Positions 21,707 through 31,861 of a stretch of DNA of 44,591 nt are shown piece after piece. This DNA comes from Bacteroidota bacterium (GTDB taxonomy: Bacteria > Bacteroidota > Ignavibacteria > Kryptoniales > JAKASW01), in assembly GCA_021811615.1 (NCBI GenBank), contig JAJZNW010000033.1, positions 1 through 44,591 on the forward strand. The letters run 5' to 3'. Position numbers and translations under genes: made by a program. Position 1 is the first letter of the stretch; each line of letters begins with the position of its first letter. Under the pieces are notes generated by a model, which did no database searches, was not told the origin of the DNA, and saw only the letters and a program-made list of their open reading frames with translations.

Positions 21707-22219
21707 TCAATATGTAAGCGTCAGGACGTAATTTCCGCTATACGATCCAGCCGTGGCATAACAGCTATTGAAAGCGCCTCCCAGCCGAAAGTGAATAAGC
21801 CCGTCGGAGCCGATTGCCGCCGTCCCTCCCGTCACAGAAGGGAACTCATTCCTTTTTTCCCCTCTCGAATTGCCGTTGCTCCACACGGAGATATCGGTTG
21901 ACAATGCCAAGGTTCTTCCCTCATTACTGCGAAGAATCACCATGCTGGGTATTGAAACGGCTACTCTGGAAGTGGGTTGTCCACTGACCGTGAGAAACCC
22001 ATAATCTGTTTTAGACTTGGTGGTTTGCCGAAACCTCCCTCCGGTTTCAAAATAATCGAACTTGATTCCCTCTAGGGCAGTCACGGCGGTCGCCTGAATA
22101 ACAACGACCGTGATCGTTGCCGATGCAGAGGCTTTTGTTTGACCTGAACAGATATTCGCCTTTCCCGCCGAGAGCGAGAAAAACGCCAATACACCTAACG
22201 CACTGACCCGCTCGACCAT
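21707..22219 (-). CDS. Secreted DUF4402-type beta-sandwich protein, copy 1
   Basis: A 170-residue protein with a signal peptide (about 1-26) and SD GAGGAGG before the ATG. After the signal it shows the pattern shared by the three genes here: an alternating Ala/Ser-Thr first strand (ASASATITVVVIQATAVTAL), a middle of beta strands, a Gly-rich HFRLGGAF segment and a final strand GSYSGNYVLTLTY ending exactly on Tyr. This resembles DUF4402, a family of small secreted beta-sandwich proteins, but this copy is the most divergent: it lacks the aromatic 'YFTF' strand. Its role is unknown; surface fibre or matrix subunits are plausible. It ends 348 bp from plsY. Confidence 0.65.
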   Translation of the reverse strand: MVERVSALGVLAFFSLSAGKANICSGQTKASASATITVVVIQATAVTALEGIKFDYFETGGRFRQTTKSKTDYGFLTVSGQPTSRVAVSIPSMVILRSNEGRTLALSTDISVWSNGNSRGEKRNEFPSVTGGTAAIGSDGLIHFRLGGAFNSCYATAGSYSGNYVLTLTY

Positions 22220-22442
22220 TTTTCCTCCTCGAACCCAAGATGGCTAAAACCTGACGCGTTGTTTTATCCGATGAAAGCGTCGTGGTACGAGTTTAACCAG
22301 TATTCCAAACAAAGTCAAGCTTGAGCAGTAAGGTGAGCGTCGTTCTCAACCCGGCTCTCTTTGAAAGTGTATCTCACAGCGGCGACTTCCGCATTCAAGG
22401 ATGAATGAGCCGGACGTGCCGGGGTGACTCTGAGAGTCGAGC

Positions 22443-22985
22443 CTAATACGCGATGGTCATGGTGAAATTACCAATGTAGACGCCGAGCGGTTGATCGGGG
22501 GAGAGTTTCGCCGAACCGCCTACCCAGAAATGGTAGTGACCCTTTGAATTTGTGACCAGGCCGGTCCCGTCCTTGATAATGATGGACTGAGCCTGAACGG
22601 AGGTGGGACTTCCCGCCAGCTCACCGGTGAATTGTATCGAGCTACCGTTAAACGTCAAACGAGTCGAAGAGAAAGTCACGATGATCTGAGTATGCGGTGA
22701 CGATCCAAATGTAAAATAGGCCGCCGAGCCGCCCCCGGTTACCGGGTTGACCTGGATCTCCGTTACACCCTGTACGACCGTCCCGAGCTCAAGATTGCGT
22801 AAGGCGGACAATGAAACCAATCCCTTGACAACAATGTTTGCCGATGCAAAAGCGGTTGTAGTCTGGGCATACGCATTTGTCCCGCCCACGATGAGCATGG
22901 CCGCGATCAACGCCTTCCCGGCAAAGCTGCTCTTTATGTTGAAATGGAACGGTGGGTGTTCTTTCTCCATCGTTCTAAATATCAT
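22443..22985 (-). CDS. Secreted DUF4402-type beta-sandwich protein, copy 2
   Basis: A 180-residue protein. Signal segment at about 24-40 (GKALIAAMLIVGGTNAYAQ), cleavage likely after YAQ. DUF4402 features: FASANIVVKGLVSLSALRNL, LELGTVVQG, a Gly-Gly-Ser-Ala turn leading to AYFTFGSSP, GHYHFWVGGSAKL, and the terminal strand GVYIGNFTMTIAY ending on Tyr. The start is uncertain: ATG at 22985 or the in-frame ATG at 22970, neither with a strong SD. It is separated from copy 1 by 223 bp and from copy 3 by about 106 bp. It is much closer to copy 3 than to copy 1 in its middle strands. Confidence 0.72.
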   Translation of the reverse strand: MIFRTMEKEHPPFHFNIKSSFAGKALIAAMLIVGGTNAYAQTTTAFASANIVVKGLVSLSALRNLELGTVVQGVTEIQVNPVTGGGSAAYFTFGSSPHTQIIVTFSSTRLTFNGSSIQFTGELAGSPTSVQAQSIIIKDGTGLVTNSKGHYHFWVGGSAKLSPDQPLGVYIGNFTMTIAY

Positions 22986-23091
22986 TGATTAATGAAGTCT
23001 AAACAAGGGATAACGGGAGCGGCATCGTCCTGGAGAAAACGAATCTGTTTGCCGCTGCTGATTTCAAGGTTGGAGCGATATTATCCGTGCT

Positions 23092-23586
23092 TCAGTAAGT
23101 GACCGTAAGATCAAAAGTCCCTTGATAAGCTCCGGCTGGAAGAGTGTTTGTAATCGGAGCCGTCGTACCACCCACCCAGAAATAGTAGTAACCAGTTCCG
23201 TTAGTCGTTACGTCTGACCCGCTCGATATTGTAGTGGCGGAAGTCTGACTCGATGACGACGAAGCTCCTACAACGGAAGGAGTCCAGGCGATACTCCCGG
23301 TGGTGAAGGTCATCGGTGTGCTGGTATATGATATCGCGCAGGAGTGGTTTGCCGAAGTCTGCAGCGTAAAATAAGCGGCCTCGGTCCCGTCAGAGTTTGG
23401 ATTTACTACTGCCGCAGTTGAATCCTGAACGTGAGAGGGGAAATTCAGGTCGCGCACTGTCGTTACCGTCACCTGGGCGTTAACTGTAAGGTTCACGGTG
23501 GCAGAAGCAGTTCCTGATACTTGGGCGAAAGACCTGGTTCCCCAGAAAGCCACCAGAAGAAAGGCGACTGGGATGTATTTTTTCAT
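23092..23586 (-). CDS. Secreted DUF4402-type beta-sandwich protein, copy 3
   Basis: A 164-residue protein starting at ATG 23586 with a GGAGA SD; an in-frame TTG at 23601 overlaps that SD and is less likely. Signal peptide MKKYIPVAFLLVAFWGTRSFAQ. Mature protein: GTASATVNLTVNAQVTVTTV, DLNFPSHVQD, DGTEAAYFTLQTS, a Ser/Thr-rich loop (SSSSSQTSATTISSGS), GYYYFWVGGT and the terminal strand GAYQGTFDLTVTY ending on Tyr. This is the best match of the three to the DUF4402 pattern. The Ser/Thr-rich low-complexity loop and C-terminal Tyr suggest an extracellular structural protein. Confidence 0.78.
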   Translation of the reverse strand: MKKYIPVAFLLVAFWGTRSFAQVSGTASATVNLTVNAQVTVTTVRDLNFPSHVQDSTAAVVNPNSDGTEAAYFTLQTSANHSCAISYTSTPMTFTTGSIAWTPSVVGASSSSSQTSATTISSGSDVTTNGTGYYYFWVGGTTAPITNTLPAGAYQGTFDLTVTY

Positions 23587-23826
23587 CGTATCTCCGCGCA
23601 ATTTAATAAGTCACATTCACTATACGTAACATTCGCAAAAAAAACAGATGGGTGCCGCTGCATCCAGGGACTCGAAAGTCTTACCACGGTCTCAAGTAGA
23701 CCGCCGTGTGCCGGCCGGCGCGTACGGTGGAGAGCGTCCGCTTATTATTAAGCAACGCGTATGCCGAGATCGGCGCTACTAATTCTGCCGATTTGATGCG
23801 TGTTGTGTATCATGTTTACAAAATCT

Positions 23827-24047: not shown

Positions 24048-25190
24048 CTAAAAGTTAGAAAGAAGCTTCTCGTTTGTCGGATATCGCCGGATCAGTTTAA
24101 GGACATTCTGCATCCCTTCGCGGGGCGACATTCGGGCTATTGATCTCCGCAGCTCCTGATGCTCCCTGAGAGAATCGCCGAAGAGCAACTCTTCCCGGCG
24201 CGTACCTGAGACACCGAGGTTGATTGCAGGAAAGATCCTTTCATTCGCGAGATCCCTGTCAAGGACGAGCTCCATGTTTCCCGTTCCCTTGAATTCCTGG
24301 AATATCAGCTCGTCCATCCTGGAGTTCGTGTCCACCAGGATCGTGGCGATAATTGTAAGCGAGCCGGCTCCTTCGAATTTCCTCGCCGCTCCGAATATTC
24401 GCTTGGGAACTTCGAGCGCCCTTATATCGACTCCGCCGGACATGGTCCTGCCGCTGCTCTTCTGATGGACATTGAAGGCGCGGCCGAGCCTCGTCAGAGA
24501 ATCCAGGAGGAGGACGACATCTTTGCCTGTTTCTACTTTCCTCTTAGCGTATTCGGGGACAAGCTGCGCCAGCCGAACGTGGCTCGAAAGGTCGTTGTCA
24601 TTGGAACTGGCAAAGACTTCGCCGCGAACGGACCGTTTCATGTCTGTAACTTCTTCCGGACGTTCATCGATAAGAAGAACGATCAACTCCACATCCGGAT
24701 TGTTCTGGCTTACGGCGTGAGCGATCTGCTGCATCAGGATGGTCTTACCGGCTTTCGGCGGTGAAACTATCAATGCACGCTGTCCTTTCCCGAGAGGGCA
24801 GAAGAGATCGACTATGCGCATCGCGGGATCCGAAGCCGGCCCTTCGAGCCTGATGATTTCACTCGGTGAGACAGCCTCGTGCTGCGAGAACTCCGCAATT
24901 GTTTTCCATTGATCGGGATTGACCCCGTTGATCGCGTCGATATTCTTTGCTTCCAGCCCCTTGCCGTTTCCGTTCGCTGCACTTCCGGAGATGAAGACTC
25001 CCTGGCGAAGGTTGAATCGGGAGATGATTGATTCGGGTACGAAGATGTCGCTCTTGTTCGCGCCGAGGGAGAGGGTTAGGTTCCTTACGAAACCCATTTC
25101 ACGAGGCTGTCGGTTGTGTCGGTCGCCATGCATATGCTGCGGCCCTTTGGGACGGCCTCTTTCAATTTCGAGAATTCCCGAAAATGTTAT
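24048..25190 (-). CDS. rho: Transcription termination factor Rho, apparently with a non-canonical start
   Basis: Hexameric RNA-dependent ATPase/helicase that ends transcription. From ATG 25133 it reads 361 residues: end of the RNA-binding OB fold (DIFVPESIISRFNLRQGVFISG), Walker A SPPKAGKT (124-131 in that numbering), LLIDERPEEVTDM, and the Q/R-loop region DSLTRLGRAFN, GGVDIRALEVPKRIFGAARK and MDELIFQEFKGTGNME, so the motor is complete. The OB fold, however, needs its first strand, and that strand is present in frame upstream (FSGILEIER, matching the family's GVLEI) back to 25190, with no ATG, GTG or TTG before the TAA at 25199-25197. A perfect GGAGGT sits at 25199-25204, 8 nt before an ATA and 5 nt before an ACG. 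I therefore extend the gene to ATA 25190 (380 residues). The N-terminal Rho_N helical domain is absent. A basic insert (RGRPKGPQHMHGDRHNRQPR) interrupts the OB fold. Confidence 0.9.
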   Translation of the reverse strand: MTFSGILEIERGRPKGPQHMHGDRHNRQPREMGFVRNLTLSLGANKSDIFVPESIISRFNLRQGVFISGSAANGNGKGLEAKNIDAINGVNPDQWKTIAEFSQHEAVSPSEIIRLEGPASDPAMRIVDLFCPLGKGQRALIVSPPKAGKTILMQQIAHAVSQNNPDVELIVLLIDERPEEVTDMKRSVRGEVFASSNDNDLSSHVRLAQLVPEYAKRKVETGKDVVLLLDSLTRLGRAFNVHQKSSGRTMSGGVDIRALEVPKRIFGAARKFEGAGSLTIIATILVDTNSRMDELIFQEFKGTGNMELVLDRDLANERIFPAINLGVSGTRREELLFGDSLREHQELRRSIARMSPREGMQNVLKLIRRYPTNEKLLSNF

Positions 25191-25198
25191 CGTTGCTT

Positions 25199-25204
25199 AC
25201 CTCC
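25199..25204 (-). promoter_or_regulatory. Strong Shine-Dalgarno that decides the rho start
   Basis: GGAGGT on the minus strand, 8 nt before ATA 25190 and 5 nt before ACG 25193, but 65 nt from the first canonical ATG (25133). Its position argues that ribosomes start on a non-canonical codon, as infC does with AUU. An in-frame TAA overlaps its end, so translation cannot begin further upstream. Confidence 0.6.
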
Positions 25205-25867
25205 AGTTAAGGTATCTGTCGCTGTTCCGCACATGTCGCGGTGTATAATTCTGAGTGCTCTGCAATTTGGTCGCTGCTTCATTGTTCATTCGCGATCTCA
25301 AGGCATCCTCTGCCGCAGAGCGATTAGAACCGAGGATTCTCCGGCCTCAAATGAGTGGAATGTTGTGCATTCGTTGAAAGCGGATCGATCTATCGGATCC
25401 GAGCGTACGGAAGTTGATCCCTGTTCATTCTGCTACCGACGCACCAAAGATATTCGATTGCACAATGTTTTTCAAGGCAAGCAAGCAAGGTATGTTGAAA
25501 ATGAGAATTCCGGCGGCCGTGCGCCAATTCCTGTCATGAAACGCCGGGTAAAACAAGGCCGGCGGATTCACACTGCTCAGTATTGTCGCAACGAAGCCGT
25601 GAGCACGTCCATCATCGGTTCAATCAGTGTCGGGGAACGCTCCGCAAGGCAGATCGGGACTAAAGACTTGATCCTTTAAGTCGATAAAGAGGATAGGAGG
25701 CGGTTCTTGCAGTCGGAGGGAAGGTCGGAATTAGTATGATTTTGCTGACTTTCTTACATCAGTTTGTTACCTTAGTTGACATTCGAGCCATACCTTCCGG
25801 TGTGCCGAAATTTGACTATGCAAACATCGACCTATATCGAACGGGTTGACTTCTCAAGGAGAAGAGC
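25205..25867. other. Divergent intergenic region between rho and the giant sensor kinase
   Basis: A 663-bp region carrying the rho leader and the kinase promoter. I find no gene I can support: a 187-residue plus-strand frame that starts inside rho (25116-25679) has no domain, SD or plausible composition. No riboswitch or tRNA was recognised. The kinase SD AAGGAGA (25856-25862) closes the region. The long leader upstream of rho would leave room for rut-type autoregulation. Confidence 0.4.
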
Positions 25868-28800
25868 ATGAAAAAAAACGACCCTTCCAACTCATACCGA
25901 GCATACTCCAGAGAGATAATCTACTCGACGCTGAACGTCGGGCAGGATTCGGAGCAGTCTCTCGACTACGTCGGCGAAAATGCCGGGAGGATTCTCGGGT
26001 ACAATCCAATGCTTACGCCGGGCGAAGAGAACGCTTGGCTTTCTTCGGTGCATCCGGATGACAGAAATGAAGTCGCCGGGAACTGGCGCAAGGTATATGA
26101 GTCGCAGAAACCCCGGACAATCGAATACCGAATGAAAGCCGGCGCCGGTTCCGGTTATTTATGGATAGAGGATAGAACGGCTCCGCGCCTCGATGCCGCC
26201 GGCAAAGTGATGGGAGTGGTGGGATCTGTTGTTGATATCTCGTCGTCAAAGCTGCGCCCCCGTAAGAAGAGCCGGACCGGCTCGGTCGAGGAAGCTCCGG
26301 GATCAAAAGTATCGAAGGAGAAGACTGCCCGGTTGAACCGGATGCTTCGGATGCTGTCTAACGTGAACCAGCTTATCCTCCGTGAAGAGAACCGCGACTC
26401 GCTGTTTCAGGAGGTATGCAACGCGATCGTGGATGGCGGTGAATACCGGCTTGCCTGGATAGGCCTTGTGGACGACGGCGGCAGTAAGGCGACACCCGTT
26501 ATCTGGAGCGAAGGAGGCGGAGAACTTCTGAAGGGGACGAAGATTCCGCTCGGACCGGGTAAGGCGGGCGAGATCATGGTACAGAGCGCCGTGGAATCGA
26601 AGAAAGCTTCGCTTTTCAACGACCTGACCGCCGGCCCGGCCGCCGAAGGCCTGCGTCTGAAATATCTGGAACGCGGCTACCTTTCGGCGGGGTTCTTTCC
26701 GATGCACATCCGGGGTTTCGTGGAAGGTGTAATCGGGATATGTTCCGATGAAAAAAACTTGTTTGATCGGGAAGAGACTTTTCTTCTCTCTGAGCTTGCC
26801 GACGACATCGGCTTTGCACTCTGGGCGATAGAATCAAGGGCACAACAGGCGGCAGCTGCAGAAGCGGTACGCGACCGGGAATTCTGGCTGAATGAATCGC
26901 AACGCGTTGCGCATATCGGATCTTACGTCTACGATTTTACGAAGCGAAAATGGTCGGGGACCATGGAACTCGGCGATCTGCTCGGACTTGACGGTGCTAA
27001 TGAGCGCGAGGTGGAATCACTGTTGAATGTCGTCCACCAGGATGACAGGGAATGGATCGTCGGAAAAGTGAGAAACATGTCGGGCCCCAATGGCCGGATG
27101 GAAGAGGCGTTCAGAATCGTAAGGGCATCGGACAAACAGGTAAGATGGGTGTGGGCGACCGCAGAGATTCGAACCGACTTTTCCGGAAAGCCCGCGAAGC
27201 TGTTCGGTACGATGCAGGACATAACGGCGCGCAAACAGGCTGAAGATGCATTGGCTCAAAGTGAAAGCCTGTTTCACACTTCCTTTGAGAATTCATCTAT
27301 GGGGATAGCCTTGCTCGCTCCCGACGGGAGATACCAGAGAGTCAATGCCAAGTTCAGCCGGATGATTGGATACTCAAAAGAAGAACTGCTGAAGTTGAGC
27401 TGCAAGGAGATCACTTTCCCCGAAGATGCGGCAGTTGCCGACGTTGTCCTCGCCGAGGCATTCGCAGGGAAGACCGGCGGCGTCGTAGAGAAACGCTACG
27501 TCAGAAAGGACGGGCAGATTATATGGGTCGAGTTTTCCGTATCGCTGGTCCGGAACCTTAACGGTGAGCCCGGATACCTGATTGCCAATTTCAACGACAT
27601 AACCAAGCGAAAGCGTGCGGAGGAAGATTTCAGGAATGAGCACATCCTGCTGAGAACACTTATCGATAACCTGCCGAACTCTATATATGTGAAGGATACG
27701 GAATACAGGAAAACGCTCGCGAATCCTGCAAATGTCCGGCATACCGGGAAGAACTCGGAATCTGAAGTTCTCGGGAAGACCGATTTTGAACTTTATCCTT
27801 TCGAACTCGCGCAGAAATACAACAATGACGATCAGGCCGTTATCCGGGACGGGAAGGCGATACTCATAACGGAAGAATACGGCTTTACACAAAGCGGAGA
27901 GAAGAAGTGGCAGCTGACTTCGAAGATACCGCTTCGTGATAAGAACGGTAAGATAGTGGGATTAATCGGAATCGGCACCGACATTACCGAAAGAAAGCAC
28001 CTTGAAGAGGCACGTGAAGAGGAGCGCCGTCTCCTGCGCACCTTGATCGATAATCTTCCAAGCGCAGTATTCGTCAAGGACACGGAATTCAGGAAGACCG
28101 TGGCGAACAGGGAACACCTACGGGGTATCTCAGCCCAGCTCGGAAGGCAGAACCCGCTCGAAGAATTCCAGGTCCTTGGTAAAACAGACTTTGAAGTTCT
28201 GCCGAAGGCATTGGCTGAACGCCACTTCAGAGAAGACCTGAAAGTGATCCGCGATGGCGAGATGATCCTGGATCAGGAAGAATTGGAATTCGATGCGGAA
28301 GGAAACAGGCACTGGAACCTTCTGTCAAAGATACCGCTGCGGGATTCAAACGGGAATATCTCAGGTTTGTTGGGCATAAAGACCGATATCACTGCGAGGA
28401 AGCTTGCGGAGGAGGCCATGTCCCGCGAACGACTGCTCCTCCGGACTATTATCGATCGCCTTCCCGCTTCAGTGTGGGTCAAGGATAAGTCGTACAGAAA
28501 AACCCTGGTCAACCGCGCGCACGTCGGACGCATGTCCCTTTTCGCAGTCAGGAATATCACCTCGGAGTTCGATCTAATCGGTACGACAGACTTCGATATG
28601 TACTCGCCGGACAAGGCAACGATTTACAATCTTGAAGACAGAGAAGTGATAGTACACGGGAAGTCGGTCATCGACCGGGAAGAGCTGGTTGTAGATTTAA
28701 AAGGGAACAGACACTGGCAGCTCGTTTCGAAAGTTCCCTTGCTCGACGAATACGGACTGACTACGGGACTCGTGGGAATCGTCACCGACATCACGAAACA

Positions 28801-31800
28801 GAAAGAGGCCGAGGAGGAAAGCGCGAGGGGGATGGAGCTCCTCAGGACGCTGATCGACAACCTTCCTAACGCTGTTTTCGTGAAGGACAGGAATTTACGC
28901 AAGGTGATTGCCAATCCTTCTCACGTCAGAAGGATTAGTCTCCTTACCGGGGGAAAATTCGCCACCGAGTCCGACCTGATCGGCAGAACGGATGAAGAAA
29001 TCCTTTCGCCTGCGAAGAGCCTGATCGACGAAGACGAGCGGGTTATTAACGAAGGGGTTGCCATACTGAACAGGGAAAATCATTCGGTAGATGCGGACGG
29101 CGAAGAACGCTGGGAACTCGTATCGAAAATACCTTTACGCGATAAGACCGGTGAGATAACCGGCTTGGTGGGGATCACGACCGAGATCACTGAACAGAAG
29201 CGCGTCCAGAAGGAGCTGAGGACCTCAGAGGAGACTCTTGCGAGGATCACGGGCTCGATAAGCGACATCATTTATAGTGTCAATGGAAGGACGGGCGAAT
29301 TCGAATACCTGAGTCCCGTGTTCGAGAAGGCGCTTGGTTATTCGTTGAGCGACATAAAAACCATGGGAGGGCGGTGGGCTTTTCTCTTGTCGGTTATCGA
29401 GGGTGCAGACCCGGCCGCGACAGACCCCGTCATGGACGAGATGCAATATGAAAATGCGGAGTACCAGGCTACATGGGAGAACTGGTGGAAGTGCAAAGAC
29501 GGCACGAAGCGTTTCATCGAAGACGAGTCTCTCCCGGTTTATGAAGATGGGCGGCTTGTCAGGATAGACGGGGTCTTAAGAGACTTCACCGAAAGAAAAC
29601 TCGCCGAAGAGGAGATCGAGAAAGAGCGCGTGCTTCTCAGGACACTGATCGACAACATCCCGCACGCAATCTATGTAAAGGACAGAAACTACAGGAAGGT
29701 GATAGCAAACCCGGTCGACGTCCGGCAATTCGCAGGCCTGTCATCTGAGGCTGAGATCATCGGTAAAACTGATTTCGAAGTCTATCCCAGGGAGAGCGCG
29801 GAGAAATATTACGAAGACGACCGGCGGGTGATAGAAAACGGCGAGTCAATAGTTGCCAAAGAAGAGTTCCTCCCGGACGTTGACGGCAGAGAGCATTGGA
29901 TCCTTACGACAAAGGTCCCGTTGCGCGGGAATGACGGTGCCGTCAATGGACTGGTGGGTATCGGGCTCGACGTTACCGATATACGCACGGTGGATGAAGC
30001 ATTGAAACGTTCCGAGGCGGAACTCCGTGCTCTCTTCGAATCGATGCACGACGTCGTAATGGCGATCGACTCCGAGGGGAGGTACGTCAAGGTAGCTCCT
30101 ACCGATCCGTCGCTCCTGTATAAACCCGCGCCGGAAATTGTCGGCAGGACTCTCTTCGATGTTTTACCGGAAGACCAGGCGAACCAGTTCTTCGGCGTCA
30201 TCACGGAAACTCTCCGGACGGGGGAGATACATACTCTCGAGTATATGATGGTCATCGAAGGAGATGAACGATGGCGGTCGGCAACGGTCTCTCCGATGAA
30301 CGACAACACCGTTCTCTGGGTCGCCCGCGATACAAGCGAGCGGAAGAAAATGGAAAAGGAAATTACCGACTCGGAGAAGAAATACAGGGAGCTCGTCGAA
30401 AACGCGCTTGTCGGGGTTTACAAAATCAACCTCAGCGGTACCATAGTCTATGTAAACAAGGCTATGGCAGATATGCTTGAGTACGATTCTCCTCAGGAGC
30501 TGATGTCGGTCAGTTTCTCGTCTTTATATAATGATGTTGAAGACAGTGCAGGACTCATAGACGAGCTGCGGACATACGGAAAGACGGATCAGAACAGGGA
30601 AGTTGAGCTGAAGACGAAGACAGGGAAGGTTCGGAATGTCCTGATAAATGCGTCGCTCGAGAAGGACGTTATCTCGGGAATGGCGAAGGACATTACGGAG
30701 ATACGGACACTCGAGCGTCAATTCATACAGACTCAGAAGCTCGAAGGGCTCGGGAACATAGCGGCAGGTATCGCCCACGACTTCAACAACATACTCGGCG
30801 TCATACTCGGCTATTCGGATCTCCTCGGGCAGTCGGAGTACAGCAGGGAAAAATTCCAGAGAGGCATGCAGGCGATCGCGAAATCCGCCGACAGGGGGAA
30901 GTCACTCGTGCGTCAGCTGCTGACATTTGCCCGCAAAACGGAAGTCGAGTTCGAATCCGTCGATCTCAACAGTTCCGTTGCGGAGATGGAAAAGCTTATG
31001 AGCGAGACATTTCCAAAGACCGTGGAAGTGCGTACCCAGCTCGCGAGAGATATTCCTCCCGTCCACGCCGATGCGACTCAGATCCACCAGGTCATATTGA
31101 ACATCTGCCTCAACGCCCGCGATGCGATGCCCAAGGGAGGAATCCTTTCCATTTCCACAGATGTCGTCTCCGGTTTCACTCTCAGCCAATTCCATCATGA
31201 AGCGGCATCGGATAAATACGTCGAGCTCCGCATTGCGGATAACGGAACCGGGATGGAGGAAGCGATCAGGCAAAAGATCTTCGAACCGTTCTTCACGACT
31301 AAAGGTATCGGGAAGGGCACCGGGCTCGGTCTGTCGGTCGTCTACGGGATAGTCGAGAGTCATAAAGGTTTCATCGATGTGGAGACTGAGCCGGGGAAGG
31401 GAACCGCGTTCCGTATTTACTTCCCCGTACTGAAACATGAGACGGACAATGGCGCTCATCAGGACGACGCATCCGGCGTCGACCGCGGGAAGAGAGGGAA
31501 TATACTGGTAATTGAAGACGAGGAAATGCTCAGGGAGCTGCTTCGTTCCGTCCTGACTTCGAGAGGGCACAACGTGATTTTCGCCAACGACGGCGAGGAA
31601 GGGCTTTCGACTTTCGTTGGACAGAAGGACGGGATAGATATTGTCCTTTCTGACCTCGGCCTGCCGAAGCTGGGTGGTGAAGAAGTGGTCAGGGAGATCA
31701 GGAAATTATCGAAGACGGCTAAAGTCGTTGTCGCGAGCGGCTTCATCGCGCCGGAGGTGAGGGATGAATTGGAAGAGATGGGCGTCAACTATTTCATCCA

Positions 31801-31861
31801 GAAACCTTACAGGACGGCAGAGGTGCTGAATGTTGTGGATGCCGTACTTTCTTCGAAGTAG
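25868..31861 (+). CDS. Giant cytosolic hybrid histidine kinase with about 11 PAS domains
   Basis: A 1997-residue protein with no signal peptide or TM helix. ATG 25868 follows AAGGAGA. Approximate domain order: PAS 10-120; GAF_2 155-325; PAS 341-460; PAS 465-580; four tandem copies of one PAS module (593-710, 721-845, 857-978, 991-1110), each beginning [10 protein letters not shown]-x3-VKD and containing GKTDFE or a variant; PAS 1118-1245; a fifth copy of the module 1256-1373; PAS 1382-1495; PAS 1502-1615; HisKA with His1637 in [11 protein letters not shown]; HATPase with [21 protein letters not shown] and [14 protein letters not shown]; and a receiver 1877-1995 with Asp1929 ([12 protein letters not shown]). 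All kinase boxes and the receiver acidic pocket are intact, so it should be active. The five modules differ at synonymous sites, so they are old duplications. No cognate regulator gene is adjacent. Signals are unknown; heme, flavin or other PAS ligands are possible. Confidence 0.95.

Follow-up and report, generated by a model that had tools for sequence, protein, structure and literature searches.

How does translation of a rho-like gene begin when its open frame offers no canonical start codon ahead of the first conserved residues? The question is posed by a gene on the minus strand of the 44,591-nucleotide stretch of DNA analyzed here, which we call the window. The open frame that contains the gene spans positions 24048-25196 (minus strand). 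G010 and G003, the two closest genomes of the genus, encode proteins that are 96% and 92% identical to that of the window, respectively. The gene and its start region comprise the following features:

24048..25190, minus strand: rho2, a short Rho paralogue with an OB RNA-binding domain and a RecA-like ATPase and without Rho_N, given from the proposed ATA to the stop codon.
25199..25204, minus strand: GGAGGT Shine-Dalgarno (SD) sequence, identical in G010 and G003.
25199-25197, minus strand: in-frame TAA, read from the sequence.
25194..25196, minus strand: GCA, aligned with the ATG start of G011, G001 and G009; ACA in G003.
25191..25193, minus strand: ACG, the alternative start codon; spacing to the SD 5 nt; also present in G010 and G003.
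25188..25190, minus strand: ATA, the most likely start codon, a third-base near-cognate of AUG; spacing to the SD 8 nt; also present in G010 and G003.

Profile, domain and tree data indicate that this gene is a second, short rho paralogue and not the housekeeping rho. It scored 413.9 bits in a profile search with TIGR00767, below the curated cut-off of 509.45. The genome to which the window belongs, a draft of 4.49 Mb in 150 contigs that is 84% complete, holds four matches to this profile: the window gene, a gene on a different contig (C118) with 681.5 bits, and two weak matches of 56.4 and 40.5 bits. The gene on C118 starts with ATG and encodes Rho_N, Rho_RNA_bind and the ATPase domain. The window protein matches Rho_RNA_bind (PF07497) with 30.3 bits against a cut-off of 27 and ATP-synt_ab (PF00006) with 84.6 bits; no Rho_N was found in it by Pfam at E ≤ 0.001, whereas the domain is present in the other Rho of the genome, to which the window protein is 49% identical. 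Rho chains in the PDB match the window protein with E-values of 1e-90 to 1e-88. When 54 short paralogues and 13 other Rho proteins were placed in one tree, the short paralogues grouped as a single clade with a support of 0.999. Since the protein has no Rho_N, falls below the cut-off and groups in a separate clade, and since another contig carries the housekeeping rho, we refer to the gene as rho2. The initial annotation had called it rho; it is instead a divergent short paralogue, and the rho on C118 begins with a regular ATG.

Among the matches listed, the nearest named relatives (56-71% identity) were three Ignavibacteria/Ignavibacteriae metagenome-assembled genomes (MAGs) and one Bacteroidetes MAG, which makes an Ignavibacteria-like host probable. 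Orthologues of rho2 were identified in 12 of the 13 genus genomes (E ≤ 1e-120) and in 55 genomes of a class-wide set of 391 (E ≤ 1e-108), where the clade of short Rho proteins without Rho_N coexists with the housekeeping Rho. Judged by title and the start of the abstract, the open-licence PMC matches listed included no paper on a short second Rho in this group, nor any describing a rho gene that starts non-canonically.

On the minus strand of the window, the frame contains no ATG, GTG or TTG between the TAA at 25199-25197 and the ATG at 25133, its first canonical start. This agrees with the initial annotation, which had also given the spacings correctly: ACG 25193 follows the end of GGAGGT after 5 nt, and ATA 25190 after 8 nt. 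After ATA 25190 (minus strand) the codons are ACA TTT TCG GGA ATT CTC GAA ATT GAA AGA, and the frame after the ATA encodes TFSGILEIERGRPKG... with no stop until 24048. The residues FSGILEI align with the first OB strand throughout 34 Rho sequences (the window protein and 33 others, housekeeping Rho included), which bears out the earlier assignment of FSGILEIER, upstream of ATG 25133, to the first strand of the Rho OB fold.

The substitution pattern points in the same direction. Over FSGILEIER the window and G003 differ by two synonymous and no nonsynonymous changes. Codons 2-21 differ between the window and G010 by two synonymous and three nonsynonymous changes, a stretch too short to prove constraint for that pair. 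Over codons 22-382 the dN/dS ratio is 0.03-0.05 in the three pairs of window, G010 and G003, and by this measure the body of rho2 is under strong purifying selection. Around the start, 36 of the 42 columns of 25211-25170 are invariant, as compared to a leader mean of 0.68 and a value of 0.46 for third codon positions. Of 1391 stretches of 42 columns, 93 score above it, and the block is thus well kept without being the best-kept stretch. Judged from these alignments, the rho2 N-terminus is coding. Because FSGILEI is aligned across Rho, only synonymous changes separate it from G003, and three species share the SD/ACG/ATA block, the missing canonical start amounts to more than chance.

One alternative to a non-canonical start would be translation from ATG 25133, with the conservation upstream as a relic. 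We regard this as highly improbable, even though it is the window's first canonical start and G010 has an ATG at the same place (and another at codon 8). G003 carries TCG there, and its earliest in-frame ATG is codon 57 with no canonical start before it, which refutes the idea for that genome; in addition, a start at 25133 would remove the first OB strand, which is kept in all 34 aligned Rho sequences. ATG 25133 was therefore ruled out as the start.

Before FSG, G010 and G003 share the block ACTGGAGGTAA(G/A)CAACGATAAC with the window, and ATG, GTG and TTG are absent ahead of FSG in all three. The tree places the three in one clade with a support of 0.996. The remaining nine genus orthologues have an ATG ahead of the OB strand; the non-canonical start is thus found in 3 of the 12 genus orthologues, all from one clade. 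Alignment with the starts of relatives, suggested earlier as a check, shows that G010 and G003 lack the ATG too and that the ATG of the next relatives (G011, G001 and G009) aligns gap-free with the codon at 25196-25194, which is GCA in the window and G010 and ACA in G003, and not with ATA or ACG.

The three genomes of the clade vary at about half of their third codon positions, of which 45.8% are invariant. With no canonical start before FSG in any of these divergent genomes, base-call error is excluded as the cause in this clade, including the misreading of ATG as ATA that had been considered the main alternative. Sequencing or assembly error, or a decaying pseudogene, might be suspected in a draft genome of 150 contigs and 84% completeness, but the same block in two other truly diverged genomes and the dN/dS of 0.03-0.05 in the body refute this for the clade, and we give it next to no weight. 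The pseudogene was ruled out by the dN/dS ratio in particular. Thus, with three divergent genomes lacking a canonical start before FSG, the proposal of a non-canonical start is supported.

We also read the 5' ends of rho2 across the class, at 55 loci (the 55 class genomes minus G352, plus G391). One locus, L195 from G391, is cut by the contig end, leaving 54. A canonical start is absent before the OB strand in 4 of these 54 short orthologues, namely those of the window, G010, G003 and G266, the last a single MAG from another family:

L194 (G266:C61) 2530-2522, minus strand: ACG region of the G266 rho2, also read as L160, with ATC two codons on.

G266 has ACG where its relatives G361 and G280 have ATG, and no canonical codon follows until position 48 of its open frame. 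In the tree it falls beside G361 and G280 and apart from the window clade, suggesting a separate loss of the ATG, although an error is possible there since it is a single MAG. Counted in this way, the 54 orthologues contain two separate losses. As a control, 89 other rho loci (L001, L023-L034 and L039-L114) yielded no case without a canonical codon before the OB strand, a weak comparison given that long N-terminal regions hold such codons by chance. A survey for other non-canonical starts, in which stretches of the window's own genome were compared with G010 and G003, covered 94 conserved ORFs and gave 45 flag lines. The flags were noisy from overlapping genes, antisense ORFs and conserved leaders, and a codon test gave no clean-up; by eye, only infC and rho2 were conspicuous, an impression and not a measured rate. 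The suspicion raised by one survey ORF (L139) was dropped, its start being normal.

The reading that we prefer, with a probability of roughly 60%, is that rho2 initiates at a near-cognate codon, probably AUA 25190, behind a strong SD and with a low, IF3-sensitive yield. In the three-species clade, the codon aligned with the ATG of the relatives reads ACA or GCA, and initiation would have shifted to a near-cognate codon behind the strong SD, most likely AUA 25190. The 30S subunit would be anchored by GGAGGU and AUA poorly recognized by the initiator tRNA, such that the Rho2 protein would be made at a low level, rising when the start-codon discrimination of IF3 relaxes. The codon used, the low yield, the IF3 dependence and the selective advantage of such a start are all features that we infer for rho2. 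Loss of the ATG could also represent drift toward low expression and not regulation, and in G010 the ATG at codon 8 could start a protein lacking only the first residues. A feedback of Rho on its own synthesis, as proposed in the initial annotation, is unsupported: the gene, a divergent paralogue, scores below the Rho cut-off, and the rho on C118 starts with ATG. On its own, a weak start codon would make expression depend on the initiation fidelity set by IF3, as with infC, and not on Rho.

Near-cognate starts have a precedent within the genus. The infC gene of all 13 genomes (L125-L137) has no ATG, GTG or TTG before the conserved N-terminus; the frame reads ATC (nine genomes) or ATT (four), followed by AAC in all 13. 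A purine-rich SD precedes the ATC or ATT: AGGAG lies 7 nt before it in ten genomes and 6 nt before it in G006 and G002, and G005 has GGAGG. Based on the sequence and the known case of infC, we read these ATC and ATT codons as the starts. AUH starts are probably commonplace in the genus, the pattern being shared by 13 of 13 genomes. In Staphylococcus aureus, infC and ccpN start at AUA and cvfC1 at AUU, all behind extended SDs (PMC13009471). When cells grew in poor medium, the reporters for cvfC1, ccpN (AUA) and citZ (AUA) yielded about 10% of what AUG gave, and in rich medium the ccpN reporter reached up to 30% (PMC13009471). Carried over to rho2 by analogy, such yields suggest that the weak start codon would act as a brake on the amount of Rho2 protein.

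Which of the two near-cognate codons is used is a closer matter. ATA is probably the better candidate, at about 70:30. It differs from AUG in the third base only, like AUU and AUC, whereas ACG differs in the second. Across 444 sampled ORFs (31 stretches of the genus and one neighbour), the aligned spacing of strong SDs peaks at 3-4; against a background of about 6, 15 ORFs have a spacing of 5 nt and 10 a spacing of 8 nt. The spacing of 8 between GGAGGT and ATA is thus occupied, yet beyond the peak. Spacing therefore favours ACG slightly, and codon identity favours ATA. That both codons are retained says little, since both are ordinary here (ATA makes up 32% of the Ile codons and ACG 35% of the Thr codons in 13 window genes) and G011 has both downstream of its ATG. 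Initiation at ACG 25193, with the mechanism otherwise the same, is rather unlikely, with several points in its favour: a spacing of 5 is the aligned spacing of most infC starts in the genus and is fuller than 8 in the ORF sample, ACG is kept in the three species, and G266 has ACG in place of the ATG of its relatives. On the other hand, ACG has a middle-base mismatch to the initiator anticodon, and in G011 it stands after the ATG as an ordinary Thr codon. In a study of all 64 codons in E. coli, AUA reportedly initiates better than ACG. We continue with AUA 25190 as the preferred start.

Upstream of the SD, the leader contains three candidate elements:

25447..25475, minus strand: promoter-like TTGAAA-N17-TATCTT, from a pattern scan; kept in three species.
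25198..25214, minus strand: hairpin UACCUU-AACUG-GAGGUA over most of the SD, from predicted folds.
25187..25234, minus strand: upstream ORF (uORF) in the -1 frame, 15 codons plus a stop, the TAA of which overlaps the ATA (ATAA).

The promoter-like element, a pattern with one match against 0.7 expected in shuffles, would imply a leader of approximately 250 nt. Conserved blocks at 25300-25475 (minus strand), such as GAGGCCG..AATCCTCGGTTCTAATCGC.CTGCGGC, are common to the three species. No Rfam family matched at gathering thresholds anywhere in the window, the rho2 leader included. The hairpin is predicted for all three species in their two longer folds and recurs in the consensus fold; the shortest fold of G003 lacks it. 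A switch between a conserved CCTC in the leader and the GAGG of the SD was considered and dropped, because UACCUU, close by, is the partner of the SD in the consensus fold.

The uORF raises the possibility that a leader peptide (25234-25187) is translated and that ribosomes restart at the overlapping AUA, the AUAA forming a 4-nt overlap like AUGA and coupling rho2 to the leader. Its start is ATG in the window and GTG in G010 and G003, at the same aligned place, and in each of the three species the TAA overlaps the ATA. Termination-reinitiation usually goes with short overlaps (PMC10666635). However, by eye no SD precedes the uORF, chance ORFs of 15 codons are common, and three sequences are too few for a coding test of the uORF. 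Coupling would also be unnecessary given the strong SD beside the ATA, and we consider it improbable; direct initiation at AUA behind GGAGGU is the reading retained.

The surroundings of rho2 are partly shared. In the window, G010, G003 and G011, rho2 is divergent from a large PAS/histidine-kinase gene. The window copy (25868-31861, plus strand) encodes a hybrid histidine kinase of 1997 aa that combines many PAS domains with a GAF and a receiver domain; in G003 the related ORF has only 1149 aa. On the other side, at 21707-23601 (minus strand), three DUF4402-like proteins are encoded beside rho2, one of them just under the Pfam cut-off, with 27-90% identity between species. DUF4402-like genes follow rho2 in seven of the nine other genus loci read; of the other two, the G012 contig ends there and G002 lacks them.

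If the preferred reading holds, a conserved near-cognate start in a paralogue of a termination factor would tie initiation fidelity to transcription termination. More speculatively, and in our view rather unlikely, the short Rho paralogues of the class may repeatedly have come under IF3-coupled near-cognate initiation, here combined with the AUAA uORF and the SD hairpin, such that a second Rho would be made only upon a change in initiation fidelity or leader translation. The state of translation would then be directly linked to transcription termination. In practical terms, gene callers restricted to ATG, GTG and TTG would truncate the Rho2 protein within its RNA-binding domain. The finding also points to a little-studied clade of short Rho proteins beside the normal Rho.

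Rho2 and the housekeeping Rho described by TIGR00767 have the OB RNA-binding domain and the RecA-like ATPase in common, whereas Rho2 is without Rho_N, scores under the curated cut-off and belongs to the separate clade. Few natural bacterial genes are known to start at AUA or ACG. The closest parallel is infC (AUU, AUC or AUA), which has an AUH start behind a good SD, as proposed for rho2, and does so in 13 of 13 genomes of the same genus; the difference is that IF3 acts on its own start codon whereas the Rho paralogue does not, and rho2 would instead follow IF3. In S. aureus ccpN, cvfC1 and citZ, and in E. coli pcnB, which reportedly starts at AUU, a non-canonical start holds translation low, as we suggest for rho2, but these are other genes in other phyla, and the attenuation measured there is conjectural for rho2. 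In sum, rho2 is best read as a new gene with a conserved near-cognate start of the infC/ccpN kind.
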